Assembly (NCBI GenBank): GCA_018302125.1
Contig: JAGWAC010000008.1
Span: 1 to 45,837, forward strand
Reading direction: 5' to 3'
Length of the DNA stretch: 45,837 bases
DNA from: Candidatus Woesearchaeota archaeon
GTDB lineage: Archaea; Nanobdellota; Nanobdellia; SCGC-AAA011-G17; JACPIM01
A program made the translations under genes and the position numbers. Shown piece after piece: positions 1-20,630 of the stretch (position 1 is the stretch's first letter; each line of letters starts with the position of its first letter). The notes beneath the pieces were generated by a model, which saw nothing but the letters and a program-made list of their open reading frames with translations, ran no database searches and had not been told where the DNA came from.

Positions 1-1603
1 CATTGTCATCTTTTGTCTTTAGGTAATTCACTCTAGCAAATACAGCATCTGAAGCTATAACATTATACAAATTTGTTGATATATTTACACCTTCATTAAT
101 TCCACCAATCTCTTGAGATACTGACAAATTAGTTACAGATAAGTTACCTAAGTAAACTATGTTTGGATTTGCATTTTCATCTTTATAAAATAATGCAAAA
201 CCTCCTCCTGCATCAACATCTTCTGTTTGCAACCATAATTCATTTGTTTTAATGTCATTATCATTCTTAGTGCCATTTGATATAAAGCTTTTTATTCCGT
301 TTGGAACAATAAATCTATCTGTTCCAGGTGCAGAAATATGTATTGTTCTTGCACTTGTACTTGCCTTGTCATATTTTGACTTTGCTGTGTCAGTGCTACT
401 TGAATATTCTAAAGTCACAGTTAAATAATCTGTGTCAGGCACTGTTAAGCTGTCTAAACATACTTGTGCATAGTTATTAGGTAATGAATAACATTCTCCA
501 ATACCTGCTGGATTGTCTGTGTCATCATCTTTTGTATAATCATTCTGAATTCCAATAAATGGACCTGTAGGATCAGTACTTCCGCTAGATACAGTTGTAG
601 TCTGTTTTAAACCCAAGTTTCCTAACTTCCATGTCCAGTCAGGATTATTCTTGTTTTCTCCTACATAAGCATCTCCATCTGCAAAAGTATCTTGTGCATT
701 CTTGCCAATAATTAATGCTGCACTTCTTTCAGATTTTGAAGTTGCATAGAAAGTGTCATCATTTTTAACTTCAATATTATTTACTGTTTTACTTGCATCT
801 GCATCTACTGTGTCTACTTTACCATCAACATCTATTAAAACAGCTCCACTGCTTCCTACATTTTGTAGAGTTACCTTTTTACCTTCAACAGTAACAGAAT
901 CTCCTACTTTCATAAAGTATTCTGTACCGACTGTTGCTGTAAACTTGCTTTGTGAACTGTCTACAGTTGTAATCTTTAAGGTCTTTCCCAAAAATTTAAC
1001 TTCCAATGGATCTGCATTTGTTGCTTTAGATACATTTAATGCATCATCAAAAACATAGTAATATTTCATAGCTCCCTTTGTAGTTTCTAAAAATACATTG
1101 CTTTCATAGTCATCATCAGCACTTGTTAAACTTGTCTCTATTGATGGAGATGTCTTTGTAAATATAAGTTCATCGTGTGCTTCAATATCTTCATCTTGGA
1201 AATTAATTGTTCCATCAAAAAAACTTGTAATATCAGATTTTTCTAATGAGAAATCCAAAGCTACTGTTGTTGAGTTAGCTATACCAAGACCAATGGGAAC
1301 ATCTTCTGTAACTCCACCACTTACAGTAACTGTACCTGAAGTACTTACTGCTTGTTTGGATAAGAACTGCAATTTCGCAGCTACATCACTAACACCTAAA
1401 GTATCAGATACATCTGCTTTGCTTCCTACAACTAAAGCTGTATCATCATTATAAACTCCCTCGCCAGAAACAAACGGCTCTGGAAGATTAGCCAAATCTA
1501 AACTTGCTGCTTGTGCTACCGCACCTGTAACTGTTGCTCCTAACATAGCAACACCAACACCTAAAGCGGCCACTCTTCTAATGGCTTGTTTTAGTCTTTG
1601 CAT
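1..1603 (-). CDS. S-layer / major surface protein, C-terminus beyond left edge
   Basis: Reverse strand is open from ATG at 1603 to position 1: MQRLKQAIRRVAALGVGVAMLGATVTGAVAQAASLDLANLPEPFVSGEGVYNDDTALVVGSKADVSDTLGVSDVAAKL... Signal peptide, Asp/Thr/Ser-rich, typical archaeal S-layer N-terminus. Missing from the ORF track because it is open at the edge. Confidence 0.85.
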   Translation of the reverse strand, partial: MQRLKQAIRRVAALGVGVAMLGATVTGAVAQAASLDLANLPEPFVSGEGVYNDDTALVVGSKADVSDTLGVSDVAAKLQFLSKQAVSTSGTVTVSGGVTEDVPIGLGIANSTTVALDFSLEKSDITSFFDGTINFQDEDIEAHDELIFTKTSPSIETSLTSADDDYESNVFLETTKGAMKYYYVFDDALNVSKATNADPLEVKFLGKTLKITTVDSSQSKFTATVGTEYFMKVGDSVTVEGKKVTLQNVGSSGAVLIDVDGKVDTVDADASKTVNNIEVKNDDTFYATSKSERSAALIIGKNAQDTFADGDAYVGENKNNPDWTWKLGNLGLKQTTTVSSGSTDPTGPFIGIQNDYTKDDDTDNPAGIGECYSLPNNYAQVCLDSLTVPDTDYLTVTLEYSSSTDTAKSKYDKASTSARTIHISAPGTDRFIVPNGIKSFISNGTKNDNDIKTNELWLQTEDVDAGGGFALFYKDENANPNIVYLGNLSVTNLSVSQEIGGINEGVNISTNLYNVIASDAVFARVNYLKTKDDN

Positions 1604-1863: not shown

Positions 1864-2310
1864 TTAACAGATCCTTAAATTTGCTATAAATAAGATTCCT
1901 TCTTCCTTAAATCTATATGTGGTGCTTTCTATGCCTTTATCACAATTACCTTCAGAAAAAAATTCTAATTCTTCTGTTCTTAATTTTATGAAATAATCTC
2001 TGTTAATTAAGATTGTTGAAAATACATTATTTAATTCTTTTTTAAGATTTAAACACCCAAGTCCATTATTTACATTTCTTCTTTTCTCAATATAGCAGTC
2101 ATTAATTAATTCCCTTATATTTACATTTCCCTGCTGCTTAATTAAAGCATTCAGCAGATTATTGGCAACTAAGCTTTTCCTCAAGTCAGATTTATTGTCA
2201 GTGGTTTTAAAATTAAAATTCAAGGCAATAACTAAAATAACAACAAGAATAACAACCAATATAGCCAGCCCTATTATTTCAACTTGTCCTTTTTTGTTTT
2301 TTGTTTCCAT
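1864..2310 (-). CDS. Pilin-like protein with class III signal peptide
   Basis: METKNKKGQVEIIGLAILVVILVVILVIAL: KKGQ cleavage-like motif followed by a hydrophobic helix. Confidence 0.6.
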   Translation of the reverse strand: METKNKKGQVEIIGLAILVVILVVILVIALNFNFKTTDNKSDLRKSLVANNLLNALIKQQGNVNIRELINDCYIEKRRNVNNGLGCLNLKKELNNVFSTILINRDYFIKLRTEELEFFSEGNCDKGIESTTYRFKEEGILFIANLRIC

Positions 2311-2361
2311 TAAGTGCTTTTCTAACCAGTTCTGAGCGAACTTTTTCTAAAAGTTTGGTTC

Positions 2362-2952
2362 TTATATTTGTACCCTTAATATTCCTATCCTGTATTCATT
2401 TCCGTAATTTAATGAAACAGGCAAGCTAACGCTTAAAACTCCCTTTTTATTTTGTAAATTATCATAAGCTATAATAAATCCGCAATTATTTGGAAAAGTG
2501 CTTTGTTGATATTTCTCCAAAGTGCATTCTGTTTTTTGCATATTTTCATTTAATTCAGGATAAATACTTTCTACAATTATTTTTCTTTTTCCAAACCTTT
2601 CAGCATAATATCCTTTGTTTTCTTTAACCAGCTCCTTAAAAGCAAATAACTTTGCAATATCTACACAATCCTCATCCTCGCACTTTATTTCCGGAGATTG
2701 TCCCAATATATATACTAATATTAAATTCTCAAAATCAGTCTTTTCACTGCCAATGCCTCCCAGATTTCTGTAAAAAAACAAATAATAAACAAAAATTCCG
2801 GCAATAATCAAAAAAACAACAACTAATAAAACCAATAAAGTCTCTGTTAATTCAGCCTGCCCTTTCTTATCTGGTTTTTTTCCCAGAAGTTGATAAGAAC
2901 CTAGGTTCTTATTTTTAGTAAATCTTTTTTCTAAAAAGGTTTTAGAAGACAC
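2362..2952 (-). CDS. Pilin-like protein with class III signal peptide
   Basis: DKKGQAELTETLLVLLVVVFLIIAGIFVYYLFF motif; N-terminal 30 aa may be repeat-derived or the start may be internal. Confidence 0.55.
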   Translation of the reverse strand: MSSKTFLEKRFTKNKNLGSYQLLGKKPDKKGQAELTETLLVLLVVVFLIIAGIFVYYLFFYRNLGGIGSEKTDFENLILVYILGQSPEIKCEDEDCVDIAKLFAFKELVKENKGYYAERFGKRKIIVESIYPELNENMQKTECTLEKYQQSTFPNNCGFIIAYDNLQNKKGVLSVSLPVSLNYGNEYRIGILRVQI

Positions 2953-3850
2953 TTGTACACCCGCTCCTCTTTATATTGTCATTTTGCTCTTTCATTACTT
3001 CTTTATATTTCAGTGGCTCTCTTTTAAATAAATCCAGGGTTTTTTCCATTTCATTATATAAAAAATTGCATTTTGAATTTAATTTTAATAAACCAGCTTT
3101 CTTTTTATACAAATTAGAAATTATTTCTAATCTTTCTAAAGCCTTTTTCTTTAAGCAGCTATATTCTTCATAACTGGAAAACATAGCTCCATAAATCATT
3201 TCTTCCCCATAAAACTCCTCTTTTTTATTTTCAGGGTAAAAAGTTATCATATTTCTTGAATTATCTATAACTAATACTTTATTCTCCCTGAATCTTGCCT
3301 GCAGATTAGAATTTCCAAAATCAATTATAATATCATTTTTTTTAATTTCTTGATTTAAAGAATTTGATTTTGGAAATTTATCAGGTATATTAAAGAAAAA
3401 ATTTTCATTTCCAATAATATAAAATTTATTGTTTAAGTTAGTAGCATAATATAAATTATCAATTTTAAAAGGAAAGATCCATGCATTTGTCCATAAATTA
3501 AACTTCTCTCTAAAATTGCCGTCAGCATAAATCAGGTGCAATGTATCTTTTCTAGCCCCCTTAAATAATACTTCTCCGCATTTAAATTCTATATCAACTC
3601 CTTTTGGAAGTTCAACAACTTTATTCAAAGAAATTCCTATTGAAAAAGAGTCTATTTCATTGTTTAAAGTAGAAACAACTTCATTTATGCCCAATTTATT
3701 AAATAAGCCTATTTGTTTCCATGCAAAAAATAAGAAAAACATTAGCAGTACACTTCCAGCAATAATAACAAATATCCAATTAAAGGTAATTTCAATCCCT
3801 TTTTTATCCATAATATTAAATAAAAGAAAATAATATAAATACCTTTGCAA
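2942..3850 (-). CDS. Membrane-anchored pilin-like secreted protein
   Basis: MDKKGIEITFNWIFVIIAGSVLLMFFLFFAWKQ N-terminus; likely start is the internal MDKKG rather than MQRYLYY. Confidence 0.55.
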   Translation of the reverse strand: MQRYLYYFLLFNIMDKKGIEITFNWIFVIIAGSVLLMFFLFFAWKQIGLFNKLGINEVVSTLNNEIDSFSIGISLNKVVELPKGVDIEFKCGEVLFKGARKDTLHLIYADGNFREKFNLWTNAWIFPFKIDNLYYATNLNNKFYIIGNENFFFNIPDKFPKSNSLNQEIKKNDIIIDFGNSNLQARFRENKVLVIDNSRNMITFYPENKKEEFYGEEMIYGAMFSSYEEYSCLKKKALERLEIISNLYKKKAGLLKLNSKCNFLYNEMEKTLDLFKREPLKYKEVMKEQNDNIKRSGCTSVF

Positions 3851-3861
3851 AATAAGAAAAA

Positions 3862-4722
3862 ATGTTTAATTTGAAAAAATATAAATTTAGGAGGGTTTAT
3901 ATTTTAGTCATGTTAATTATTTTAATCTTATTAATTTTTCTATATAAAAATAAAAGTCCACAAGAAGATAAAAATGAAGAAGAGCTTGTTTTTTTCTCTG
4001 TAAATGCTTTTACTGCTGTTAATGAATATGCTGAACAAAATAAGCCAATTTATGATGTTTCTGATATAAAATCTAAAAGACAAAAAGAAAAATTTGATAA
4101 AAATTTTGGAAAAGAGCTCTTAAAATTATTAAATTCTCCATTATTGCCAGTTTCTGTGAATGAAATGGTTATCTGGCGTAGTGATCCAATAGATAAAGAA
4201 ACTTATATAGAAAATAAACTAACTATTTTAACATCTAATTCATCTGCTGCTTTTGCTTATTTATTAGTCCCAAAAAATATTTCATTTCCAGCTCCTTTAG
4301 TTTTAGCCATGCATGCCCATGGAAATACAAAATATGGCGCTGCAGAAACAATAGGAAATAAAGGGAATCCGGAACTTTTTTATGGGAAAGAACTGGCAGA
4401 AAGAGGTTATGTTGTTTTTGCTATGGATGCCTCTTCTTTTGGAGAAAGACTGGATTTCTCGCAAGATTCCGTTGAAGTGCAGGAAAAGAAGTATGCTCAA
4501 GACTTGTTTGAGTTAGGATATTCTCCATTAGGAATAACTATTCAGGAAGATATTAGAATCTTAGATTTTTTGACTTCTTTCTCATCTATAGACAAAGACA
4601 ATATTGGTTGTATTGGGCATTCTTTTGGCGGAGTAAGATGCATGTACTTATCTGCTTTAGATGAAAGAATTAAAGTAACTGTTCTTTCAAATTCGGAGGC
4701 ACCCAGACATGGTTATCCATAG
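3862..4722 (+). CDS. Alpha/beta hydrolase (dienelactone hydrolase/acetyl xylan esterase-like), N-terminal part of a frameshifted gene
   Basis: N-terminal TM helix, GHSFGG nucleophile elbow; continues in another frame at 4758-4991. Confidence 0.65.
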   Translation: MFNLKKYKFRRVYILVMLIILILLIFLYKNKSPQEDKNEEELVFFSVNAFTAVNEYAEQNKPIYDVSDIKSKRQKEKFDKNFGKELLKLLNSPLLPVSVNEMVIWRSDPIDKETYIENKLTILTSNSSAAFAYLLVPKNISFPAPLVLAMHAHGNTKYGAAETIGNKGNPELFYGKELAERGYVVFAMDASSFGERLDFSQDSVEVQEKKYAQDLFELGYSPLGITIQEDIRILDFLTSFSSIDKDNIGCIGHSFGGVRCMYLSALDERIKVTVLSNSEAPRHGYP

Positions 4723-4757
4723 TTCCGGATATAGCAAAATACACAGGCGGAAATGGT

Positions 4758-4991
4758 ATGCTGGCATTAATTTCACCAAGGCCCTTAATGGTTTTATATA
4801 GTGAAAATGATCCAATTTTTCCAGCTGAGTATTTAAAACTATTAATACCACCTATAAAAAATATATACAAAATGCTTGAACAAGAAAAAAACCTCGCAAT
4901 TATTGAAATTCCAAATAAAATACATGAATTTCCTAAAGAGTACAGAGAGCAGGCTTATGAATTTTTAGACAAGCACTTGAAAAATAATTAA
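4758..4991 (+). CDS. Alpha/beta hydrolase, C-terminal part of the frameshifted gene
   Basis: MLALISPRPLMVLYSENDPIFP...IHEFP carries the acid and His region missing from the upstream ORF; frame is open upstream (...WLSIVPDIAKYTGGNG). Confidence 0.65.
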   Translation: MLALISPRPLMVLYSENDPIFPAEYLKLLIPPIKNIYKMLEQEKNLAIIEIPNKIHEFPKEYREQAYEFLDKHLKNN

Positions 4992-5467
4992 CTTATTTGA
5001 ATATATTCTCCCTTATTTTCTAAATTTAATTTTATAGTTCCTGTATTCAAAATACAAACAGGATTTTCAGCAGGTTTCAGATTTTTAACACTAAATAATC
5101 CCTTTGTACAGTAATTTAAAGGCAGAAAAATCACATTATAATCCAGGTTATTTACAGCCTCAAATAATCCCTTGTCAATTTTGTCAAACTCTGCCTTATT
5201 TATGTAGTTTTCTTTTGTATAAAAACAAACATGCTTAATATTCCTTGGCAGTTTTAAACTAATATCAGTACTGCTCCCGATATCAAAATTATAATACCTT
5301 TCAACCTCATTTTTTAAGTCATTTACAAACAATCCTAATTGTCCGCAATTGCTTGTTTTCATTAAATTATTAATAAGATAAAATCCAAAAATAAATATCA
5401 AAGCACCAACTACAACTGTAAATATAAAAATAAACGGCTTCTCTAATAATTGTCCTTTCTTATTCAT
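4988..5467 (-). CDS. Pilin-like protein with class III signal peptide
   Basis: MNKKGQLLEKPFIFIFTVVVGALIFIFGFYLI. Confidence 0.55.
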   Translation of the reverse strand: MNKKGQLLEKPFIFIFTVVVGALIFIFGFYLINNLMKTSNCGQLGLFVNDLKNEVERYYNFDIGSSTDISLKLPRNIKHVCFYTKENYINKAEFDKIDKGLFEAVNNLDYNVIFLPLNYCTKGLFSVKNLKPAENPVCILNTGTIKLNLENKGEYIQIS

Positions 5468-5855
5468 TTTCAGTTTTAATTAATTTAAGTTCTTTAATAT
5501 TTTCAAAATGTTTATTATTGAAAGTCATTAATTCGCAATTATTAACTATACAAATTGCAGCTATAAAAATATCTCTAAATTCAATTAACTTGCCTTTTTT
5601 CTTTAATTCCTTAAAAACCTCACTAGCTTTTCTTGAAGATGTCTCGTCAAAATAAAGAAGATTAACATTGTTTCTAAAAATCTCTATTTGTTCTAAATTA
5701 GTTTCTCTTAATAAAAGTTCAAATAAAGTTATAATAGTAATAAAAACATCTAAATTTATTATTTTCTCTATTAACTTCCCAGCTCTTTCTTCTTTATTTA
5801 AAATACTAATAACAATATCAGTATCTAAGCATATCTTTTGCTCCAAGTTTTCCAT
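5460..5855 (-). CDS. vapC: PIN-domain ribonuclease toxin, VapC-like
   Basis: CLDTDIVISILNKEE...TLFELLLRE...FRDIFIAAICIVNNCELMTFNNKHF: PIN acidic residues and TxNxxHF end; paired with upstream antitoxin. Confidence 0.75.
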   Translation of the reverse strand: MENLEQKICLDTDIVISILNKEERAGKLIEKIINLDVFITIITLFELLLRETNLEQIEIFRNNVNLLYFDETSSRKASEVFKELKKKGKLIEFRDIFIAAICIVNNCELMTFNNKHFENIKELKLIKTENE

Positions 5856-6055
5856 CCAATCTTAAGATCTTTATCTATTTCTTCCCACTCCTTATCCTTC
5901 TTAAGTATGCCAAAACAATTTAATAAATCAGAACCTTTCTTTATTTTTTGTGTTCTATCTAAAAGATCCTTTATAACTTCTGTAAAACTATTTTCCTTTT
6001 TAATTTTCTTTAATTCCTTGTAAAGCTCATTTGAAATCATAATTGTTTTTGCCAT
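5825..6055 (-). CDS. vapB: VapB-type antitoxin
   Basis: MAKTIMISNELYKELKKIKKENSFTEVIKDLLDRTQKIKKGSDLLNCFGILK; overlaps vapC; start taken at internal ATG (MAKT). Confidence 0.7.
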   Translation of the reverse strand: MAKTIMISNELYKELKKIKKENSFTEVIKDLLDRTQKIKKGSDLLNCFGILKKDKEWEEIDKDLKIGWKTWSKRYA

Positions 6056-6095
6056 AAGTATGAATATGATATACATATATATAAATATTTCTATT

Positions 6096-6170
6096 AAGAA
6101 TTTGGACTCTTGTTTTTGATTAAACTTTTATTAAAAGTTTGTTTTGCTTAAGCTTTTTGGGAAAAAGCTT
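6096..6170. repeat. Hairpin cluster downstream of the giant Cys-rich gene (terminator-like plus dispersed repeat)
   Basis: AAGCTTTTTGGGAAAAAGCTT (6150-6170, 9-bp stem), AAACTTTTATTAAAAGTTT (6122-6140), AAGAATTTGGACTCTT (6096-6111). Confidence 0.5.
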
Positions 6171-6171
6171 A

Positions 6172-9100
6172 TTATGGATAAACAGTTATGCTTTCCTCAT
6201 TATTAAATGCGTCCTTGCACAAAACAAAGTAAGACCTTACAGGTAAAACAGCCTCATGTTTCTTTGAATTAGCATCTGTCATAGGAATTCCCTCTCCAAA
6301 ATTAAACTGCTTATTATCATAATAACAAGTTGAATCCTCATTAGTTCCTATAATTAAAATATTATTTCTAGTGTCTTTGTAAACATTGCTTATTACATTT
6401 TGGCTTACATCAGCAGCCACTTCAAAGCTTGCAGAATCTTTTGCAGTATTTCCAGCAACATCAACACAAGTCACATAAAAAGTGTATCTCCCTTTTCTTA
6501 AATTTCTTAATTGTTGTTCATGAGTGCTTGAATTTGTTTTTGCAAATTGTGGTATGCTTGAAAGTTCAGCATTTCTTTCATTAGAATAACCGCAAAAACT
6601 TACCCCATTTTCTGCTCCTAATGCTGTCTTTACAATAATTTTTGGATTTGTTCTGAATACCTTGTCTTTGGGCTCTATGCTTGTTATTCCTAATTTTTCT
6701 GTTCTTATTAAACTAAATTGATAACTTTCTTTATTTACATTTCTTCCTTCTGTTTTTTGCGGCTGGTCTTTGCATCTAAAGTAGAAATTATTCTTTCCTT
6801 TTTTAATGTCATTCAATAATCCAGAACATCTGTATAATCCTTGTCTTAAAGGGCTTTGATCTAATCCAGATCTTGCACAAATAAAGCTGTTTTTCATTGA
6901 ATCATAATCTATGTCGTTTCTGTCCCATCTGCACTCGCTTGGCTCATTTACAAATACATCTAATCCAGCATCCAAAATATTGTCTGCAACAAAGCCATTA
7001 TTCTTTATTGAAGTTAACTCAATCTTGGGAGCAGTTAAGTCAGGCCCTTTGTTAATTTCAAATTTAATATAATAATCTTTGTTGTTTGCATTCTCATTTG
7101 CATCTATGCACCTTATATACAAAGAATATCTTCCGCCATTTGTTAATCTGATTGCTTCTTCCTCAACTAATTCACTTGGCAGAGAAAATAACATTTCATG
7201 TTCTGTCCTGAATAAATTATCTCCAAAATTAAATTTCATGTTTTCATATTTTATACTTACATTAGTATCAAACTTGCATTTGCTAGGTTCATCTGTTGCT
7301 ATTTTTAATTCAACAGGTGTAAATGGTTTTATTAAAGTCTTGATTGTAAATCCTTGATTCTTTACTTCTTCTATTACTAAATTTTTGGGCTTGACAGCAC
7401 TTATTTTCGGACTTGACACATCAATTGGAGTTTGAGCAACACATTTTTCTTCATCTGTTCCTTCATTTATTAATCTGCATAATTTTCCTAAGCTTCTGCA
7501 TCTGTATTCACTGCAGTCTTTTCCCTTTTCATTGCATTTCTCGCATTCATCTCCTCCTTTAGGAGGTTCCCATGCATTGCATGAAACTGAAAAAGTTTCT
7601 TTCTTGTCTTCCTTCCCTGCAAGGTCTATTACTTGATAAATCAAATAAATCCAGGAAATTACATTAATTATTTCCAAAGCAGCTATCAAAACAGTATTTC
7701 CTCCTGAAAAACTAGCTTCTGTTGCTGCAGTTACTTGTGCTTCTGTTGCCTTTTTTATTACTGTCCCTTTATCATTAAGAAAAACCCAATTTGTTCCTTC
7801 TTCACTTGTTTGAAAAATCATCTTAACAGCATTATCTGGTTTTTCAAGTATAGCATTCCAAGCTGCCAAATCAGAAGATGTAATCCCTTGTCTAAAAGCT
7901 TCAAGATAAGTTTGTTCTATAGTTGCTTCTCCAAATTGTAAAAAAGTTTTAGGACCTAAAACTAAACCAGATCCAAAAGCACTTACAAAAGTTCCAGATA
8001 CAGCACCAGGAATAAGAGCGCTAACAGTTCCTGCTGCAAGTCCAGTCCCAAAAATCACAAGAACAGCAGGCCAGCTTCTTTCCCAAAAACCACCTAAATT
8101 AGTTGAATCATCTCTTCTTGTATTTTGTCTTGATAATGTGTTCCAGTTTTCAAAATCTTTTTGAGTTAATACAAATTCAGTATCTTCACTAAATCCACCA
8201 GAAGTAAATCTTCCTTTAATATTATATTTTGCACCGCAGTCTCCTCTTGCAGAACATTGAGCAGCAGCAGCCTTAACCCAGTCTTTTTCCAGACAATGAC
8301 AATTTTTTACACATTCCCATTCATTTCCAGTTGAGCTTAATCCTTCAACACCAATTCCAAATCTTCCAGCTCCGCCCCTTACAAATTTAACTTCACAAGT
8401 TACAGAAGCTTCATTGCAAACAGAATTTGCTCCTGTTTGTGTTCCATCTTTGCTTCCTCCTCCAGAACTTCCTCCTTCCCAAAATAACAATCCAGGAGGA
8501 ACCAAAGGAACACACATTCCACCAAAATCACTTACTCCTCCAGCCATAAAAAAACAATCCTTATTTCCAATATCATTGCAGCATTGTTGCCTGCAGCAAG
8601 CTACCCTTGCTAGTCCAGATAAATCATTGCACTCTCCACCGCAACTTCCGCCAATTTCATTACAACTTTGGCATTCTTTATACCTATTTGCTCTGCAAGC
8701 ACTTTCTAAAAATCCCTCTCCAATATTAAACACTTGTCCTAAATTTAATTTTAAAGAATCAGAAGTTCCCTGTGCACATAACTCTTCTCTATAATCTTTG
8801 CAAGGTTCAATTACTTCTTCCCCATTCAAGCATAAAGCCCTGTAATGTCTTGATCCAACTACATCTTGTCCAAAGCCAACTCTTGCATCATATAAGCACC
8901 ATGATTCACCTGTTTCTTTTTTACCGCCAGAATCAGGGCTTGCAATATTCTCAGTAATTGTTTTGCAGCTTAAATCATTGCAACTAAATTCACCAAAAGC
9001 CATATCAACATTGTCAGGAGCTTTTCCGCATAAAGTTCCCTGACTATAATCACACATTCCGCAATTAGGATCATTAGGCCCCTTTAAATTACAAGAACTT

Positions 9101-9456
9101 CCTTTCAAGATAAATCCCTTATTGTAAGATCTGTCTTTGTTTGCATCAAAAACATTTTCAGGATTTCCACAAGAATCAAGCCAGAAAACTTTTTCTTCAA
9201 AACACCCTGTCTTTTGTTGTCTTGCACAATTAGTTCCTAATAAAGAATTACTGCACAAAACATTGGGATGAAATCCTGTTTTCAAATTTGTATTTTGAGT
9301 ATTATCAGCTACTGAAGAGCTTTCTTGATTGCAGTTAGCTCTTGTTGTAAAAGTACAGCTTCCATCTAAAGAAACGCAAGCCCCTTTCTCATCGCTTCTG
9401 CACTTGTCTACGCAAGCAGCTTCATTCTCAATATTCTTGTCAAAAATCATGTTCAA
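6172..9456 (-). CDS. Giant Cys-rich surface protein with C-terminal Ig-like repeats; main part of a frameshifted gene spanning 6172-9851
   Basis: Many Cys pairs, central hydrophobic region (IFGTGLAAGTVSALIPGAVSG...), C-terminal repeats ending YxxYxxCxDxxxN. Paralogous to 12625-15768. Open frame extends upstream to ...ISQCQKGCCQLSNECSFVTQNKC. Confidence 0.7.
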   Translation of the reverse strand: MNMIFDKNIENEAACVDKCRSDEKGACVSLDGSCTFTTRANCNQESSSVADNTQNTNLKTGFHPNVLCSNSLLGTNCARQQKTGCFEEKVFWLDSCGNPENVFDANKDRSYNKGFILKGSSCNLKGPNDPNCGMCDYSQGTLCGKAPDNVDMAFGEFSCNDLSCKTITENIASPDSGGKKETGESWCLYDARVGFGQDVVGSRHYRALCLNGEEVIEPCKDYREELCAQGTSDSLKLNLGQVFNIGEGFLESACRANRYKECQSCNEIGGSCGGECNDLSGLARVACCRQQCCNDIGNKDCFFMAGGVSDFGGMCVPLVPPGLLFWEGGSSGGGSKDGTQTGANSVCNEASVTCEVKFVRGGAGRFGIGVEGLSSTGNEWECVKNCHCLEKDWVKAAAAQCSARGDCGAKYNIKGRFTSGGFSEDTEFVLTQKDFENWNTLSRQNTRRDDSTNLGGFWERSWPAVLVIFGTGLAAGTVSALIPGAVSGTFVSAFGSGLVLGPKTFLQFGEATIEQTYLEAFRQGITSSDLAAWNAILEKPDNAVKMIFQTSEEGTNWVFLNDKGTVIKKATEAQVTAATEASFSGGNTVLIAALEIINVISWIYLIYQVIDLAGKEDKKETFSVSCNAWEPPKGGDECEKCNEKGKDCSEYRCRSLGKLCRLINEGTDEEKCVAQTPIDVSSPKISAVKPKNLVIEEVKNQGFTIKTLIKPFTPVELKIATDEPSKCKFDTNVSIKYENMKFNFGDNLFRTEHEMLFSLPSELVEEEAIRLTNGGRYSLYIRCIDANENANNKDYYIKFEINKGPDLTAPKIELTSIKNNGFVADNILDAGLDVFVNEPSECRWDRNDIDYDSMKNSFICARSGLDQSPLRQGLYRCSGLLNDIKKGKNNFYFRCKDQPQKTEGRNVNKESYQFSLIRTEKLGITSIEPKDKVFRTNPKIIVKTALGAENGVSFCGYSNERNAELSSIPQFAKTNSSTHEQQLRNLRKGRYTFYVTCVDVAGNTAKDSASFEVAADVSQNVISNVYKDTRNNILIIGTNEDSTCYYDNKQFNFGEGIPMTDANSKKHEAVLPVRSYFVLCKDAFNNEESITVYP

Positions 9457-9557
9457 ATCAGGAAATTGTGAAACAATAGATTTGCATTTATTTTGTGTTA
9501 CAAAACTACATTCATTGCTTAATTGGCAGCATCCTTTCTGGCATTGTGAAATTTGTT

Positions 9558-9851
9558 CTATAGGTTCACTTCTTTATCATAAATGCAGGTGCCGACAGAA
9601 CAATAATTTGTATTTTCACAAGTTGTTAAAGAACTTCTTGAATTTCTATCGCATTCATTTTTATCTGTATAAACACAAAAATCTCCTGATTTAGTTTTTT
9701 CACAGCAAGCTTGTTGTGTACTTAAACTTCTACTAGGACTTCTTTGTGCTTCAACATCAATAGTAGACAAGCCAAAATAAAAAACAGAACAAATTATCAA
9801 AAAAGCCATAAATATTGCTTTCTGCTTAACACCATCAATTTTTTTTAACAT
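9558..9851 (-). CDS. N-terminal fragment (signal peptide plus first Cys-rich motif) of the giant protein at 6172-9456
   Basis: ...VEAQRSPSRSLSTQQACCEKTKSGDFCVYTDKNECDRNS aligns to the N-terminus of 12625-15768 (YAQSSQQQACCEKTKTGESCVYTDRNNCDNSN). Confidence 0.75.
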   Translation of the reverse strand: MLKKIDGVKQKAIFMAFLIICSVFYFGLSTIDVEAQRSPSRSLSTQQACCEKTKSGDFCVYTDKNECDRNSRSSLTTCENTNYCSVGTCIYDKEVNL

Positions 9852-9943
9852 TCTCTTCTTAGTTAAGTTTTTTATGCAAAATTATTTTGCTTCAACTAAA
9901 TTACATTGTCACAAACTAGGACATTTTTTCATTTTTAACTTTC

Positions 9944-10282
9944 TTACTTCTCTAATTCTATAACTATTTTATTTCCTATTTTAGTTATTCCTATCTCTGT
10001 ATTTTCATCTAATTTAAGTTGTTTTTCTAAATCACTCGGAATTCTAAAAACTAAACCACCACCGCTTCTTGAAAGGTGTCTATAAAGCTTCATTGGTTCT
10101 GGCCAGACTCCCAGTTTCTTTGATGTTTCTATTGCCTTGTGAGTTTCTTCTTCATAAGGAAATTCTTCATTACAGTAGCTGCATCTTTCTCCTTTAAGTA
10201 TAAATACATAATTCTCAACTTCAAAGATTATGTCTTCTACTTTTATGAGATTACCTTTTTCACAAATCAAACATTTTCTCAT
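9944..10282 (-). CDS. YgiT/MqsA-type zinc finger plus SpoVT/AbrB-like DNA-binding antitoxin
   Basis: MRKCLICEKG...CSYCNEEF (two CxxC) then GGGLVFRIPSDLEKQLKLDENTEIGITKIGNKIVIELEK (AbrB-like). Confidence 0.7.
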   Translation of the reverse strand: MRKCLICEKGNLIKVEDIIFEVENYVFILKGERCSYCNEEFPYEEETHKAIETSKKLGVWPEPMKLYRHLSRSGGGLVFRIPSDLEKQLKLDENTEIGITKIGNKIVIELEK

Positions 10283-10470
10283 TTTCCTTCAGCTCTTGTT
10301 ATAACGAAAATATCCTTATACTCTTCATCCTTTATGTATATCAATTTTATAGTTTTCCCTTTCATCTTTGTATAAGATTCAAATTTATATTTTCCAACCT
10401 TGTCAATTTTATAAGCCTCTATCCTGTATAAAAAACTGGAACACAAACTCTTTCTCTTTTCTAGGCACAT
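10279..10470 (-). CDS. Short toxin-like protein (possible DUF4258/MqsR-like remnant) upstream of YgiT antitoxin
   Basis: GKYKFESYTKMKGKTIKLIYIKDEEYKDIFVITRAEGK; 4-nt overlap with the antitoxin; short and possibly truncated. Confidence 0.4.
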   Translation of the reverse strand: MCLEKRKSLCSSFLYRIEAYKIDKVGKYKFESYTKMKGKTIKLIYIKDEEYKDIFVITRAEGK

Positions 10471-11194
10471 CTTTTATCTTCAAAATAAATAATTCATCAG
10501 GATAAGGTTGTAATTTCTGTACAACATATAGCTTTCCAGTTAATTTTGTCTTTAAAACTGAGTATGTCAAAGTATCAATATCTCCATAAACAGCCTCGCT
10601 ATCAACAATATCCTTAGCACTATTATATAATCTTCCTAATGGATACTCTAATTCAGCTGAAAAACTATTTCTCTGTGTCTCTGTATCTCCCTTGCTTATT
10701 TTTATAGGCAAGTTGGCATTTAAAATTACAGTATCTTCACCTATGTCAACATTTAATTTCAAAGTTCCCCTCTCAGCATTTAATCCAATTTTGTCAAATT
10801 GATCAATGTCTAAACAGGAATTTACCTCATCTAGCATTCCCCTTTCTAAGCTAGTTTTAATGTCAAATAATCTTAAACCCCTGTTGCTGCATTCTGGTTT
10901 TCCTTCAATATTATAACAAAGATAATTGATTCCAACACCTTGGTTCTGCCTAAAAGTCCCAGGATTAGTTGTTAAATATCCGCCTTGCTTTCCAATTAAA
11001 ACAATATATTTTTCTCCAACTTCTTTTAAACAATCATCAATATGCCCCTGAATCTGTGGAAATTCCTTTTCCAAATCCTCAATATTAGCTCCACCAATAT
11101 AAATCTGGTTTCTAATTACTAAGAACAAAACAACTAAAGCAGCAATTATAACTCCAACTATTGCAAAAACAGTAACTTGTCCTCTTTTTTTCAT
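10409..11194 (-). CDS. Class III signal peptide (GQVTVF-type) secreted protein
   Basis: MKKRGQVTVFAIVGVIIAALVVLFLVIRNQ followed by a large soluble domain. Confidence 0.6.
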   Translation of the reverse strand: MKKRGQVTVFAIVGVIIAALVVLFLVIRNQIYIGGANIEDLEKEFPQIQGHIDDCLKEVGEKYIVLIGKQGGYLTTNPGTFRQNQGVGINYLCYNIEGKPECSNRGLRLFDIKTSLERGMLDEVNSCLDIDQFDKIGLNAERGTLKLNVDIGEDTVILNANLPIKISKGDTETQRNSFSAELEYPLGRLYNSAKDIVDSEAVYGDIDTLTYSVLKTKLTGKLYVVQKLQPYPDELFILKIKDVPRKEKEFVFQFFIQDRGL

Positions 11195-11269
11195 CTCTTA
11201 TTCTTCCTCTTTTTTAAAATATATAAATATTCTCATCTGATTTTCCTGTCTATAGTATCCTATAAGAAA

Positions 11270-12511
11270 CTAATCTAATAGCCATTTCCATAAAGGAATA
11301 AATCTAATTTTTAATTTTTTATCAATATTTTCCTCATTTTCATAATCATCTGTTATAATTAAAAGATTATCACATTTCAACTCTTTGCTTCCTTTAACCA
11401 ATGCTTTAATTTCTCTGTTTTTGGTTTTCTGATTCTTAATATTAAAACATACTTGTACAAGCTGTTTAATTTTTATCCCTTCTTTAATTACAAAATCAAT
11501 TTCTTCCTGCTTCTCATTTTTCCAATAATAAATATTTATTTGATTATTTAATTCTCTTCTTTTTAATTCAACTGCAACTAAATTCTCATAAAGTTTTCCT
11601 ATATCAGGGCTTAATTTAAAAGCTTTGCTTTGTATAAATCCATTATCTAAACAATAAATTTTTTTATTAAATCTTAATTGTTCCTTTAATTTATACGAAA
11701 ACCTGTTCACATTAAAAAAAATAAAAGATTCTTCTAAATAATTAATATATTTTTTAACAGTGTGCGAACTTTTTATTTTTATATTTTTTGTCAGAGATAA
11801 ATAAGAATATTCCTTAGTAATATTTGATAAAAGAAATAAAGCCAAATCATCAATCTCATTAGTTGCTCTTATGCTATATCTTTTTATTATATCCTTATAT
11901 ATTATTGAATTAAATAAAGTTCGTAAATATTCAACATAATCTAAATTTTTTATATAAGGTTCCGGATATCCCCCAACTATTAAAAAGTTTGTTAATTTTT
12001 CTTTTATTTCTAAAGTTGTAAGCTCTTTATTATCTAATTTTATATATTCTTTAAAAGAAAAAGGAAAAATATAAATTTGAAAATGTCTTCCTGTTAAATG
12101 TGTAGCTAACTCTTTGCTTAAAAGTTTAGAATTGCTTCCAGTAATAATTAAATTATAACCTTGCCTTTGTAATCTATTAACAAAAAGTTCCCAGTTTTCT
12201 AAATTTTGAATTTCATCAAAAAGAAGAATTTTTGGATTATTATAAACTAAATTTATTGCACTAATCAATTCATCATAATTATTTAAATTAATTAATTTCT
12301 CATCATCAAAATTTATATAACCGAAATTACTATTTCTCAAATAATGAATAGAAAAAAAAGATTTTCCTGCCCTTCTAGGCCCCATTATAATCTTTATTAA
12401 ATCACTTTCCAAGCCTTTAATTTTAGATTCTCTTGAGATATATTTCTCATTAAATCTTTTCTCTAGTTCTCGTTTTTGTAATATTAAAATATCTTTTAAT
12501 TCTTGTAGCAT
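11270..12511 (-). CDS. AAA-family ATPase with DUF4143-like C-terminus
   Basis: IMGPRRAGKSFF Walker A, ILLFDEIQ Walker B, LIITGSNSKLLS sensor, C-terminal nuclease-like YYWKNEKQEEIDFVI. Confidence 0.8.
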   Translation of the reverse strand: MLQELKDILILQKRELEKRFNEKYISRESKIKGLESDLIKIIMGPRRAGKSFFSIHYLRNSNFGYINFDDEKLINLNNYDELISAINLVYNNPKILLFDEIQNLENWELFVNRLQRQGYNLIITGSNSKLLSKELATHLTGRHFQIYIFPFSFKEYIKLDNKELTTLEIKEKLTNFLIVGGYPEPYIKNLDYVEYLRTLFNSIIYKDIIKRYSIRATNEIDDLALFLLSNITKEYSYLSLTKNIKIKSSHTVKKYINYLEESFIFFNVNRFSYKLKEQLRFNKKIYCLDNGFIQSKAFKLSPDIGKLYENLVAVELKRRELNNQINIYYWKNEKQEEIDFVIKEGIKIKQLVQVCFNIKNQKTKNREIKALVKGSKELKCDNLLIITDDYENEENIDKKLKIRFIPLWKWLLD

Positions 12512-12543
12512 ATAAATATATATAAATAACTAGTTTATAAAGG

Positions 12544-12561
12544 TTTGTATTATAATACAAA
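12544..12561. promoter_or_regulatory. 18-bp perfect palindrome TTTGTATTATAATACAAA beside the TATA box of the DUF4143 ATPase gene
   Basis: Perfect dyad; TTTATAAA just downstream on the reverse strand; gene start at 12511. Confidence 0.5.
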
Positions 12562-12624
12562 TAATTTACTATTTTTTTGCATTATGATGCAATTTTTCTT
12601 TAATTATGCTTTTTTCAAAAAAAA

Positions 12625-15600
12625 TCATACATTTATTTCAACGCCTTTTATTTCATTTCCCTGATCATCCCTGCATTTAACATAGTATTGATTAAATTCC
12701 AATGGTGCTGTATGAACTGTTGTATCCTCCCCCATCTTATTTCCAGTTCCAAATACAAAATCCTTATCTTTATATTCGCAGTTTGCTGCAACATTTAAAA
12801 CTACATATAATGTTGAAGAATCTTTATAAGTGTAAACTATTTCATTGCCTTTTTTATCTAATATTATCTTAAAATTAGTGTTTTCTTTAGCCTCATTTCC
12901 ACTACTGTCTCTGCATTTAACATAATAATTATAAGTTCCTCTTCTCAAATCAGTTTGTGATTGCAAGTGGTTATTAGAATCTGTAACCTTAAATTCAGTC
13001 ATTTGTTCATAAGCTAAATCTTCCAAACTATATCTGCAAATGCTTTTTCCATTTTCACTTCCGCCAATAGTATTTACATTTAAAGTTATATCATTAACAT
13101 AAATTAAATCATTTTTCTTAGGCTCTATTTTATTAATAACTAAAGGATTGCTTCTAACTAAAGTAAAAGGAGAAGATTGGGTATTGTTGTTTCCTTTAAT
13201 ATCACTGCATCTAATATAGAAATTATTGTTTCCTATCTTTAATTTATCAATAGCTAAATTACAATTGTAATGCATAGGTATTGAACTTGGCTCATCAGTG
13301 CATATTCCTTGGTTAGTCATCTTGTCATAACTATTGTCTCTTACATCAAATCTGCAATAGCCAGGTTCAGTAATTTCAACACCTAATAATACCTTATCTA
13401 TATTATTGGCTATATTAGCATTATTTTTTAAAGTTGTGCTTAAAATTTTTGGAGCAGTTCTGTCTTGTCCAGGCTTAGTTTTAAATCTTATTTCATAATC
13501 AGCATCATTAGTATTGTCTTTGTTGTCTGTACATCTTACATAATACTTAAATTCCTTATTCCCAACTAAACTTAAACTTAAATTATGTTCTTTCTTGAAA
13601 GAAGAATCACTTAAGTCATATCCCATATCTTCATATTTGATTCCTACTTTTAGATCATATTTGCATAAAGCAAACTCATCTGTTATCACACCAACAGTAA
13701 ATTGTTTGTAAGGTTCAATATCTTCAACAATTTTATAGCCCAATCTTACTTTTTTAACAGTAAGTTTTTGTTTCCCAAAATCAATAGGTTCTAACTTAGG
13801 AGCCTTAATATCATTTGGATTTCCATCAACACATTTTACACTAGTAGTACCTTCATTAATTAATTCGCAGCCTGCTCCTAAACCTCTGCATCTATATTCT
13901 GTGCATTCTTTAAAAGGATCATCAGTGCATTTCTCGCAATTAGCTCCACCCAAAGGAGCTTTCCAAGGCTTGCATTCTATATTAATTGTTTTTTCCCTTA
14001 CACTTCCACCACCTAGAATAATAGATGAAACAGCAGCAGCAATAAGAGCAATAGCAGCCAATATCCACCCAGCTACAGGAACAGCTGCAAACACTCCAGC
14101 AGCTGCTATAAGAGAGCCTTCAAGAGCAGCAGAAGCACCAATTGTAGCAACAGAAGTTAGAAGAATATACGAACCAGCTAAAATTGGTAGCCCATTAAAA
14201 ACAGTAAGAGTGACTGTAGAATAAAACAAAGCTTCACTAGCAGTTTCAGAAGCCTCAAAAACTTTGCTCGCATCCTCAGAAAAAGAAATTATTTTTTCTG
14301 TTTCAGAATTTAAAAATTCCATTCCTCCAAAAATTCCTTTCTTATTTAAATCATCTAAATAACTCTGGCTAAGCTCTGTAGGTCTATCACCTAGACTAGA
14401 ACCAGTCCAGAAAATACTTAATCCTGCACTTCCTTTTTCTTCAGCAATATTATAACTAAAACCACAATCTCCAAAACTTCTGCAATAAGTATTTGCTTGA
14501 TCTATAAATTCTTGAGATTCACACTCACAATTTCCTTCACAATCCCAATCTGATAGCTCGTTTTCCTTTACATAAACAACAGTGCATCTTGTTGTTCCTT
14601 TATTGCATTGTTCTTTATTTTCTTCATTATCTTCCCAAAATTCAAAACCTTTTGCAACAGTTGATATGTTGCTATTTACAGGAGAGTTATAAATATTGTT
14701 TCTCACAGGATTAGCTCTTGAAAAACCATCTTTATCAACAGCCTGCAAGCATATCTCTTCTCTAAAATCTCTGCCACTTTCAGAAATTTCCTCTCCATTT
14801 TCACATTTAAATCTATAATGAATGCTCCCAGGTTTATCTCTAAAATTTCCAGTTTGCCCCTCATAAACACACCAGCTTTCTCCATGTTCTCTGGGCCCAC
14901 CAGTATAATCTAACCCATCATACTTTTTTGTAGTGGGACAATTTATATCCTTGCAAAAAGCATTTTTATTATCTTCAACACACAATTTGCTTTCATCATA
15001 ATTGCATTGCTCTATTAATTCACCAGTACTTCCGCAAGAATCAAACCAATAAAGATCTCCATCTTTACAACCCTTATGATCTCTATCTTTACATAGATTT
15101 ATACAATCACCTACTTGACTGCACGATTTTCTAAAATTAAATTCTCCACCGCAATCAGATTTTTTTCCATAATTGCACAAATTATTGTCAACACAGCAGC
15201 CTTCTTCATCTTTTAAACTTAAATCTAAACATTCTAGCTCATTATTTGCTGACTTGAAAACCTCATTGAAATCATAATTACTTCTTCCATAAACCTTGTC
15301 AGCTAAATTTTTGCATTCAAGTTCAGAATTAAAATTGTAATTTCCACCCAGAATACAGCATCCAGTTTTGCATCCGCTTACACTATTACAACTTGCATCA
15401 CTAAAAACTTGTGAACCTTGTAAATTCTCACAAATACTTTTTGGAGTATTTGGTGAGCAGCTATTTCCACTAACACAACAAACATTTGTGCAATAAGCTA
15501 CTGCTTCACATCTATCATAATTTGTTTTAAGATTATTAGAATTATCACAATTATTTCTATCTGTATAAACGCAAGACTCGCCAGTTTTAGTTTTTTCACA

Positions 15601-15768
15601 GCAAGCCTGCTGTTGACTAGACTGAGCATAAGTTTCTTTTGGTATTTGTACAAAAAAACTCAAAGAAATCATCAAATAAATTAGTAAAACACACTTCTCT
15701 CTGATATACTTTTTGATGAAACTTTTTAAGAAAAAGTTTCTCCTCTTTTTTTCAGCCATATATAACAT
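12625..15768 (-). CDS. Giant Cys-rich surface protein with C-terminal Ig-like repeats
   Basis: Signal peptide then ACCEKTKTGESCVYTDRNNCD..., about 60 Cys, central Ala/Ile hydrophobic segment, tandem repeats FKYYVRCTDNKDN / NFYIRCSDIKGN / YNYYVKCRDSSGN / QYYVKCRDDQGN. Confidence 0.8.
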   Translation of the reverse strand: MLYMAEKKRRNFFLKSFIKKYIREKCVLLIYLMISLSFFVQIPKETYAQSSQQQACCEKTKTGESCVYTDRNNCDNSNNLKTNYDRCEAVAYCTNVCCVSGNSCSPNTPKSICENLQGSQVFSDASCNSVSGCKTGCCILGGNYNFNSELECKNLADKVYGRSNYDFNEVFKSANNELECLDLSLKDEEGCCVDNNLCNYGKKSDCGGEFNFRKSCSQVGDCINLCKDRDHKGCKDGDLYWFDSCGSTGELIEQCNYDESKLCVEDNKNAFCKDINCPTTKKYDGLDYTGGPREHGESWCVYEGQTGNFRDKPGSIHYRFKCENGEEISESGRDFREEICLQAVDKDGFSRANPVRNNIYNSPVNSNISTVAKGFEFWEDNEENKEQCNKGTTRCTVVYVKENELSDWDCEGNCECESQEFIDQANTYCRSFGDCGFSYNIAEEKGSAGLSIFWTGSSLGDRPTELSQSYLDDLNKKGIFGGMEFLNSETEKIISFSEDASKVFEASETASEALFYSTVTLTVFNGLPILAGSYILLTSVATIGASAALEGSLIAAAGVFAAVPVAGWILAAIALIAAAVSSIILGGGSVREKTINIECKPWKAPLGGANCEKCTDDPFKECTEYRCRGLGAGCELINEGTTSVKCVDGNPNDIKAPKLEPIDFGKQKLTVKKVRLGYKIVEDIEPYKQFTVGVITDEFALCKYDLKVGIKYEDMGYDLSDSSFKKEHNLSLSLVGNKEFKYYVRCTDNKDNTNDADYEIRFKTKPGQDRTAPKILSTTLKNNANIANNIDKVLLGVEITEPGYCRFDVRDNSYDKMTNQGICTDEPSSIPMHYNCNLAIDKLKIGNNNFYIRCSDIKGNNNTQSSPFTLVRSNPLVINKIEPKKNDLIYVNDITLNVNTIGGSENGKSICRYSLEDLAYEQMTEFKVTDSNNHLQSQTDLRRGTYNYYVKCRDSSGNEAKENTNFKIILDKKGNEIVYTYKDSSTLYVVLNVAANCEYKDKDFVFGTGNKMGEDTTVHTAPLEFNQYYVKCRDDQGNEIKGVEINV

Positions 15769-15892: not shown

Positions 15893-16390
15893 TTGAGAGA
15901 AAGAAAACCTTTTTTTGAAGACTGCTATAGAAGGTATTCTGTTAGGGAATATGCTAGAAGTTTTAAGATAAGTCCGCCAACAGCATCAAAAATATTAAAG
16001 AAATTTAATAAAGAAGGTTTGTTAAAAGTAACGAAAGAAAATAATTACTTATTCTTTTGGGCAGATAAAGAAAACAAATTATTCATAAATCTATCGAGAT
16101 TATACTGGATGTATGAATTAGAAGATTTTACAAAATATATAAATAATATTTTCATAGATCCGACTGTGATTTTATTTGGTTCTCTTTCTAAGGCAGAAAC
16201 AAAAATAGACTCTGATATTGATATAGCAATATTTGCAAATAAAAAGGAATTAAATATTCAAGAATTTGAAGAAAAATTAAAAAGAGAAATCCAGATTTTT
16301 ATTTTTAAATCTCCTAAAGATATAAGTAATAAAGAATTATTAAATAATATATTAAATGGATTTATATTGGAAGGAAAGGTAAGACTATAA
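15893..16390 (+). CDS. HTH plus MNT-type nucleotidyltransferase (TA antitoxin-like)
   Basis: YSVREYARSFKISPPTASKILKKFNKEGLL (wHTH) and VILFGSLSKAETKIDSDIDIAIF (NTase motif); TTG start. Confidence 0.75.
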   Translation: MRERKPFFEDCYRRYSVREYARSFKISPPTASKILKKFNKEGLLKVTKENNYLFFWADKENKLFINLSRLYWMYELEDFTKYINNIFIDPTVILFGSLSKAETKIDSDIDIAIFANKKELNIQEFEEKLKREIQIFIFKSPKDISNKELLNNILNGFILEGKVRL

Positions 16391-16797
16391 TGGATTTACT
16401 TGAATGTAGGAAAAAAAGATTTGTAAAAGAAGTCTCAATAGATGAAAATAAAATTAATTCTATTTTAAAAAATAGTGAAAATAAATTAAAATCAGCAGAT
16501 TTGTTGCCTTTAGAAGGATTTTCAACAAATTCAAAAATATCTTTAGCATATGATTGCTTAAGAGAACTACTTGAAGCTTTAGCATTAAAAAATAAATTAA
16601 AAATTTATAATCAAGAATGTTATACTGCTTTTCTTAAAGAAATTATTAAAGACTCATTATTAGGAGATGAATTTGATTCTGTCAGAATAATAAGAAATTC
16701 AGCAGATTTTTATGGGAAAAAAATTTCAATAGAAGATTGTAAAGATACTTTAATTAAAATAAAAGATTTAATAAGAAAAATAAAAGAGGAATTATGA
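16390..16797 (+). CDS. HEPN-domain protein, partner of upstream MNT
   Basis: Helical, ...SLAYDCLRELLEALAL...FDSVRIIRNSADFYGKKIS...; overlaps MNT stop by 1 nt. Confidence 0.65.
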   Translation: MDLLECRKKRFVKEVSIDENKINSILKNSENKLKSADLLPLEGFSTNSKISLAYDCLRELLEALALKNKLKIYNQECYTAFLKEIIKDSLLGDEFDSVRIIRNSADFYGKKISIEDCKDTLIKIKDLIRKIKEEL

Positions 16798-19683: not shown

Positions 19684-20244
19684 TTAGCATTTAATTATTC
19701 CTTGTCCAATTAATCCATTAAAAGCAATTTTTATCCATCCTAAATAAGGAATTCTAAAAACAGCTTTTCCAATAAGACTATTTGTAATTTCAATGTCAGA
19801 AACTGGATTATTATCCCCTTTAGTTCTGAATCCTTGTTCATTTTCTTCAATTACTCTGTGAATTATAGGGTTTCCTCTCCCATTAAAAACAATTACATCT
19901 CCAGCTCCTATATTATCATTGTTTTTCAAGACCATTATATCTCCCTGATTAATTCCATTTTTAAAGGAAAATTCACTAAACTCTTTTTTTGTTATTCCAG
20001 AATCTTCATACCACTTTCCATTAGCTTGCCACCAGTTTTCAAAATCAGCATTATGATCCATAGAACAGCTTACAACTGCAACTAATGGATGGCTTGTTCC
20101 TAAAATTAATCCAATTCCAGGGTAAATTATAAATTTCACCAAAATAAAAGCAATTATTACATTAAGAAACCATGATAATAAAGAATCATCATACCAAATA
20201 AAATACCAAGCCTTTTTCAAAAAATTCTTAAAATCTCTCTTCAT
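19684..20244 (-). CDS. Signal peptidase I, archaeal Ser-His type
   Basis: VVSCSMDH, GDIMVLKNN, GDVIVFNGRGNPIIHRVIE, RTKGDNNPVSD motifs. Confidence 0.85.
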   Translation of the reverse strand: MKRDFKNFLKKAWYFIWYDDSLLSWFLNVIIAFILVKFIIYPGIGLILGTSHPLVAVVSCSMDHNADFENWWQANGKWYEDSGITKKEFSEFSFKNGINQGDIMVLKNNDNIGAGDVIVFNGRGNPIIHRVIEENEQGFRTKGDNNPVSDIEITNSLIGKAVFRIPYLGWIKIAFNGLIGQGIIKC

Positions 20245-20286: not shown

Positions 20287-20559
20287 TTAAAATAGTTTTT
20301 TCAAGTTAGTTAAAAGATTCTCATTTAATTTTTTTAATCTTTGTATAGCTTTCTCCATTACATCCTTGGCGTCTTTTCCATCTGTCTCTAAAACAAAATT
20401 AGGTGCAGTGATCAAAGAATGTTCTAAATTATAGCCAGCTAATTTAGTGTTTTTGTCTTGCCATAACTCTTTTCTTAATATATTGGCAAATGTGTGATCT
20501 TCCCCCAAAATCTGGAATTTCAGCTTTTTTCCAGTATATTCTAAAACTCTTAATTCCAT
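20287..20559 (-). CDS. rpoL: DNA-directed RNA polymerase subunit L
   Basis: MELRVLEYTGKKLKFQILGEDHTFANILRKELW...; internal ATG at 20559 preferred over ORF start 20625. Confidence 0.85.
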   Translation of the reverse strand: MELRVLEYTGKKLKFQILGEDHTFANILRKELWQDKNTKLAGYNLEHSLITAPNFVLETDGKDAKDVMEKAIQRLKKLNENLLTNLKKLF

Positions 20560-20630
20560 GTAAAATTTAATCCAGATTCCTCTTTTTAAAGTTTTTCTTT
20601 TAAAGGGCTTTGCATATAAATTCAATTTCT

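Follow-up and report, generated by a model that had tools for sequence, protein, structure and literature searches.

The stretch analysed here (the window) comprises 45,837 nucleotides and is the entire contig JAGWAC010000008.1 (C22) of a Candidatus Woesearchaeota archaeon genome (GCA_018302125.1; 829 kb, 97% complete). It carries eight clustered genes, all on the minus strand, for two giant cysteine-rich secreted proteins (G1 and G2), five small pilin-like proteins (P1 to P5) and an S-layer-like protein. The cluster could well encode a tip or priming complex of the PilY1/minor-pilin kind that is used as a surface adhesin and is able to persist without a pilus motor, a reading held here at about an even chance. 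An initial annotation of the window had placed five small proteins with a KKG/KRG site and a hydrophobic N-terminal helix on one strand with two Cys-rich giants and an S-layer protein, and all of them were recovered as listed below, with the evidence from open reading frames (ORF), relatives, AlphaFold2 (AF2) models and structure searches given in brackets.

12625..15768, minus strand: G1, giant of 1047 aa with Sec signal peptide, Cys-rich repeat half, hydrophobic segment (about 494-585) and four immunoglobulin (Ig)-like modules (ORF, relatives, AF2, Foldseek)
10409..11194, minus strand: P1, pilin-like protein of 261 aa, KKRGQ N-terminus (ORF, alignment, AF2, synteny)
9558..9851, minus strand: N-terminal piece of G2 with signal peptide and ACCEKTK Cys motif, in another frame than the main ORF (ORF)
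6172..9456, minus strand: G2, giant, main ORF of 1094 aa as listed, frame open upstream to about 9,560 (ORF, paralogy to G1, intact ortholog at locus L038)
4988..5467, minus strand: P2, pilin-like protein of 159 aa, MNKKGQ (ORF, family alignment A7, synteny)
2942..3850, minus strand: P3, pilin-like protein of 302 aa (about 289 aa from an internal ATG), MDKKGIE (ORF, family alignment A4, synteny)
2362..2952, minus strand: P4, pilin-like protein of 196 aa, DKKGQAELTE (ORF, family alignment A5, synteny)
1864..2310, minus strand: P5, pilin-like protein of 148 aa, NKKGQVEIIG (ORF, family alignment A6, synteny)
2..1603, minus strand: S-layer-like protein, truncated by the contig end (ORF, synteny)

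Conservation of the cluster and its proteins

Synteny was assessed in 18 regions from relatives and 73 named loci, the genomes of which partly overlap. Co-location in related genomes, which the initial annotation had left to be checked, was seen across dozens of Woesearchaeota and Pacearchaeota genomes, the order G1-P1-G2-P2-P3-P4-P5-S-layer-like gene being deeply conserved, whole or partial, across families. The cluster genes lay on one strand in 73/73 named loci, P1 was within 3 kb of a giant for 72 of 81 complete giants, P3-P4-P5 were ordered in 32 of the 36 loci where P3 or P4 was seen, and S-layer-like homologs of about 750 aa followed P5 directly in 27 loci. PCNA was near the cluster in 43/73 loci, often with an adjoining signal-peptidase-like gene. 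Homologs of G1 were present in 80/99 relatives; the nearest named relatives are Woesearchaeota metagenome-assembled genomes, and an ortholog of about 52% identity is encoded on JACPNF010000014.1. A profile search gave matches in 201 of the 281 genomes of the class, strong ones in the order of the source genome and a few other families. Many Pacearchaeota have G2 represented by two shorter ORFs.

G1 and G2 had been proposed to be paralogs of more than 1000 aa. The paralogy was borne out (27% identity over about 870 residues, E 6e-111), and an intact G2 ORF was not: an apparent frameshift near 9,565 leaves the signal peptide and ACCEKTK motif in one frame and the remaining ~1,100 residues in another. 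This is either a real disruption or an assembly error; the G2 ortholog is intact in the closest relative (L038:15717-19427). Position-1 and position-2 giants separated at 95% in a tree with weak node support (0.157), so an ancient duplication behind the pair is only suggested.

The shared layout described initially, namely a signal peptide, ACCEKTK-type Cys repeats, a central hydrophobic segment and YYVxCxDxxGN-type modules, was found in both giants. Each has four of these modules (2-5 in homologs; shuffled mean 0.47), at a spacing that fits one per Ig-like domain. The hydrophobic segment precedes a CxPWxAPxGG motif and has a mean Kyte–Doolittle (KD) value >1.6 in 68/84 giants, against 7/84 elsewhere in the protein. 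The giants contain on average 65 cysteines, more than 40 of which are invariant or nearly so among 71 members.

An AF2 model of G1 was built from 71 sequences (pLDDT, the predicted local distance difference test score, 82). It gives a signal helix and Cys-rich beta-hairpin repeats to about residue 345. Next come a GDCG domain and, at 494-568, a stretch of low confidence that spans the hydrophobic segment; a helix and a Cys module then lead to predicted tandem Ig-like domains, which run from about residue 659 to the C-terminal end. Foldseek against PDB and viral libraries returned only Ig/fibronectin type III (FN3) tandems (best E 1e-14, TMq about 0.1-0.18), and with matches of such low TM no viral spike or specific adhesin family is claimed for G1. 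The Cys-rich half had no PDB counterpart by Foldseek, Pfam and NCBIfam gave sub-threshold Ig-like matches only, and a PDB sequence search with the giant profile yielded nothing useful. Thus no well-characterised family of another role was found for the giants in Pfam, NCBIfam or PDB beyond Ig-like domains.

P1 to P5 form five distinct families, most with conserved cysteines in their alignments. By sequence, all five have the class III signal peptide, with [KR]G or [KR]A directly before a hydrophobic N-terminal helix. The [KR][GA] site, mostly with Q at +1, precedes the helix in most homologs (P1, 89/105; P5, 31/35), and K3, G5 and Q6 are invariant in the P1 alignment (A2). The AF2 model of P1 (pLDDT 88) consists of a long N-terminal helix and a beta-meander, for which Foldseek found no PDB match at E <= 1e-3. 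No credible family was obtained for P1 to P5 in Pfam or NCBIfam, and the PDB sequence search with the P1 profile gave nothing useful.

The P1 profile also detects a ~650-aa paralog in most genomes. In the three genomes examined (L131:1-4110, in the source genome; L133:1-6279; L134:6426-12134) this paralog is directly followed by a different giant secreted protein that is not Cys-rich, so the pairing of P1-type proteins with giants recurs. This second pair is conserved and occurs in genomes both with and without G1 and G2. Such repeated pairing makes direct contact between P1 and a giant plausible.

Pilus machinery and its decay in one family

The initial annotation had noted that no secretion ATPase or inner-membrane platform protein is encoded in the window, an absence that means little because the window is a whole contig. 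A check for PilB, TadC and PibD homologs found all of them elsewhere in the genome. Contig C28 carries a core type IV pilus operon with PilA-type pilins, an intein-bearing PilB-type ATPase (L056:5104-10524, 1806 aa; several intein and LAGLIDADG matches), two TadC-like proteins and two further pilin-like proteins. An intein appears to break the P-loop of this ATPase. A prepilin peptidase (Peptidase_A24) with both Asp motifs is encoded at C14:12231 (E 7e-15). Among 99 relatives, TadC was found in 90 and the prepilin peptidase in 88; of the high-quality relatives, 46/47 had Peptidase_A24, and 3/3 sequences read contained both catalytic motifs. An active ATPase and TadC thus accompany the pilin set in the source genome and not across the family, the exceptions being in family f4.

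Several cluster-bearing f4 genomes are without a scoring type IV pilus ATPase, that is, with no PF00437 match above about 55 bits, against >100 for normal intein-free orthologs. Six f4 genomes (G045, G059, G066, G091, G097 and G098) encode a shortened ortholog of 383-418 aa, at the following positions.

L147:9060-10316, shortened ATPase ortholog
L148:1363-2520, shortened ATPase ortholog
L149:9488-10732, shortened ATPase ortholog
L146:6296-7447, shortened ATPase ortholog
L160:429-1673, shortened ATPase ortholog
L161:2374-3621, shortened ATPase ortholog

The P-loop motif was found in 0/6 of these proteins, and the GEIRG and GTMHA motifs were missing from all four that were aligned. Their orthology is supported by L147 and L148, where the shortened ATPase and its TadC have the GTPase and zinc-ribbon neighbours that the normal core operon has in L138. 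The TadC partner of the shortened ATPase is divergent and extended. G045 and G097 have an additional normal ATPase, and in G045 the shortened ATPase/TadC pair is about 1.3 kb from the giants.

In G005 (listed as 100% complete), G072 and G084, no ATPase ortholog and no TadC were detected. A loss of TadC across f4 was considered and dropped when a lineage profile revealed divergent TadC in several f4 genomes, so the claim for f4 is restricted to the lost ATPase catalytic motifs and the lack of a detected ortholog in these three genomes. Intein-bearing T2SSE matches of 1277 and 1473 aa (G072 and G031) were not counted as a type IV pilus motor, no recognisable TadC or pilin genes being beside them.

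The prepilin peptidase sequences read in G066 and G005 are intact, and matches above the cut-off were obtained in G059, G072 and G084. P1 to P5 with [KR][GA]-type N-termini are encoded in G072 and G084 (L049, L050) and in G066 (L054); the cluster evidence for G005 consists of giants only. Because these f4 genomes retain the cluster with degenerate or undetected machinery, canonical pilus assembly is not a requirement in every case.

Near the prepilin peptidase gene, three genomes encode a conserved ~390-aa protein with a KRG/KKA-type N-terminus (L057:5219-6403, L142:10329-11495, L143:4394-5133) that may be a further substrate of the peptidase. Apart from the core pilus operon, a conserved trio of ~185-aa membrane proteins with small partners was observed beside an intein-bearing T2SSE-family ATPase (L139:1798-9121, L140:1627-8660).

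Proposed complex and rival explanations

In the favoured reading, a PilY1/minor-pilin-like tip or priming complex, P1 to P5 would be synthesised as prepilins, cut by the prepilin peptidase of the genome and anchored in the membrane through their N-terminal helices. G1 and G2 would leave via Sec and oxidise to rigid disulfide-rich stalks with Ig-like domains at their ends, and would dock onto the pilin-like proteins beside or through the S-layer, P1 being the likeliest direct partner. With an active motor the complex could occupy the tip of a type IV pilus, and in the motor-decayed family it would remain as a short static stub. Its job would most likely be adhesion, probably to other cells, which is inferred from the Ig-like domains, the presumed surface location and the DPANN lifestyle. 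The earlier proposal, that minor pilins are assembled elsewhere to give a disulfide-rich attachment structure, may hold. For f4 it is tentatively proposed that giants and pilin-like proteins make up a peptidase-processed, static, motor-free device, in which the ATPase would be a catalytically dead scaffold or gone and TadC remodelled.

Several points weigh against a pilus-derived complex. Searches in Pfam and PDB and by Foldseek revealed no similarity of sequence or fold to PilY1/DUF2341 or to known pilin heads, and the high-quality genome G073 has the cluster and no prepilin peptidase match. TadC also occurs in genomes without giants, so its co-occurrence with them is not specific. P1 to P5 could be plain single-pass anchors, and retention of the peptidase could be explained by the ~390-aa KRG-type protein or the ~650-aa P1 paralog.

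The main rival is a static complex of the S-layer or envelope that has nothing to do with pili, with the giants as structural proteins of the cell coat and P1 to P5 as single-pass anchors beneath the S-layer. The position of the S-layer-like gene right after P5 (27 loci), the one-strand arrangement near PCNA and other housekeeping genes, the near-universal occurrence of giants in the order (43/47 high-quality genomes) and the degenerate or absent motor in f4 all speak for it. Plain anchors, however, would need no conserved [KR][GA] site followed by Q, and the prepilin peptidase is kept where the motor is gone; this explanation is regarded as possible and rather doubtful.

An ordinary dynamic type IV pilus, with P1 to P5 as the pilins and G1 and G2 as the adhesins of a long filament that the distant PilB/TadC operon would drive, is regarded as unlikely. 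In its favour, the source genome has a PilB-TadC operon that is complete and a peptidase as well, but that operon carries its own PilA-type pilins, TadC is present in giant-free genomes, and f4 genomes with the cluster have lost the catalytic motifs of the ATPase. Least probable of all is a contact device in which the Gly/Ala-rich hydrophobic segment would insert as a hairpin into the membrane of a partner cell: the segment is kept in position, not in sequence, in most giants and the disulfide-rich parts flanking it imply that both face outside, but AF2 gives no confident structure there, 15/84 giants have no segment above KD 1.5, and it may merely anchor the giant in the producer's own membrane.

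It is still an open question by what means DPANN archaea adhere to other cells, and most surface proteins of Woesearchaeota and Pacearchaeota are unannotated. The analysis yields a cluster of eight genes that is defined and deeply conserved, confident structure models of two proteins, and a natural experiment in which the catalytic motifs of the ATPase were lost and the cluster was kept; some dark-matter pilins thereby become a complex that can be tested. A further suggestion is that selection on a type IV pilus system can act on the tip complex as its unit, and not on the filament. If the proposal for f4 is true, the device would be a DPANN-specific class of cell-contact structure derived from type IV pili.

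Neighbouring genes and comparison with known systems

The five small genes lie together on one strand, as initially annotated, and do not form an uninterrupted set. A hydrolase gene and the first three features below are interspersed among the cluster genes; the last three are conserved neighbours. All were assigned by Pfam.

5460..6076, minus strand: VapBC toxin-antitoxin pair (PIN 5460-5855, VAPB_antitox 5825-6076)
9944..10282, minus strand: MazE-like (weak) protein of 112 aa, beside P1
11270..12511, minus strand: AAA_14/DUF4143 ATPase, on the other side of P1
18326..19081, minus strand: PCNA
19684..20244, minus strand: S24/signal-peptidase-like protein
20287..20625, minus strand: Rpb11-like protein

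Toxin-antitoxin-like pairs and other small genes recur within the cluster at the same locus of relatives, which gives the locus the look of an insertion hotspot. Toxin-antitoxin-like genes (a nucleotidyltransferase and a small partner, 15893-16797) also lie beside the cluster. Further along the window (23034-27032), a helicase-like ORF of 1332 aa seems, by eye only, to bear an intein.

A Sec-exported protein of about 1000 aa or more, encoded with a minor-pilin-like set, is a feature of PilY1 tip adhesins and was found here. As with PilY1 and the type IVa minor pilins FimU, PilV, PilW and PilX, one cluster combines a large exported protein with several class III pilins of differing size, and in Myxococcus assembly of the PilY1/minor-pilin complex is independent of PilB (PMC7541494). 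Unlike in the PilY1 complex, the giants are Cys-rich and Ig-like, there are two per cluster, and an S-layer gene is included. Neither the PilY1 C-terminal propeller nor DUF2341 was matched in Pfam by 17 giants (E <= 0.01) or by the window giants (E <= 1), so by predicted domain content the giants are not of the PilY1 family.

Methanococcal type IV pilus loci combine two large proteins of the DUF2341 kind with five or more minor pilins, and a PilY-like role was proposed for them by Makarova 2016 (PMC4858521). The present system shares with them two large proteins, about five minor pilins and a prepilin peptidase, and differs in the lack of a DUF2341 match in the giants, the location of ATPase and TadC outside the cluster, and the lineage.

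The closest precedent in DPANN archaea is that of Makarova 2019, in the published text of which islands of type IV pilus-like dark-matter proteins (cls.004306, NEQ255) lie beside arCOG02487 S-layer-like proteins and are proposed to be related to type IV pili or secretion (PMC6393860). Compared by that text, both systems place secreted DPANN-specific proteins next to Ig-type S-layer-like proteins; the parts of the text consulted describe no giant Cys-rich family or gene order. Literature text searches, which covered neither subscription papers nor preprints, returned no description of the giant family, the gene order or the ATPase decay. DPANN dark-matter pilin islands beside S-layer-like genes were already known; the present analysis describes in addition the giant family, the gene order and the decay of the ATPase.

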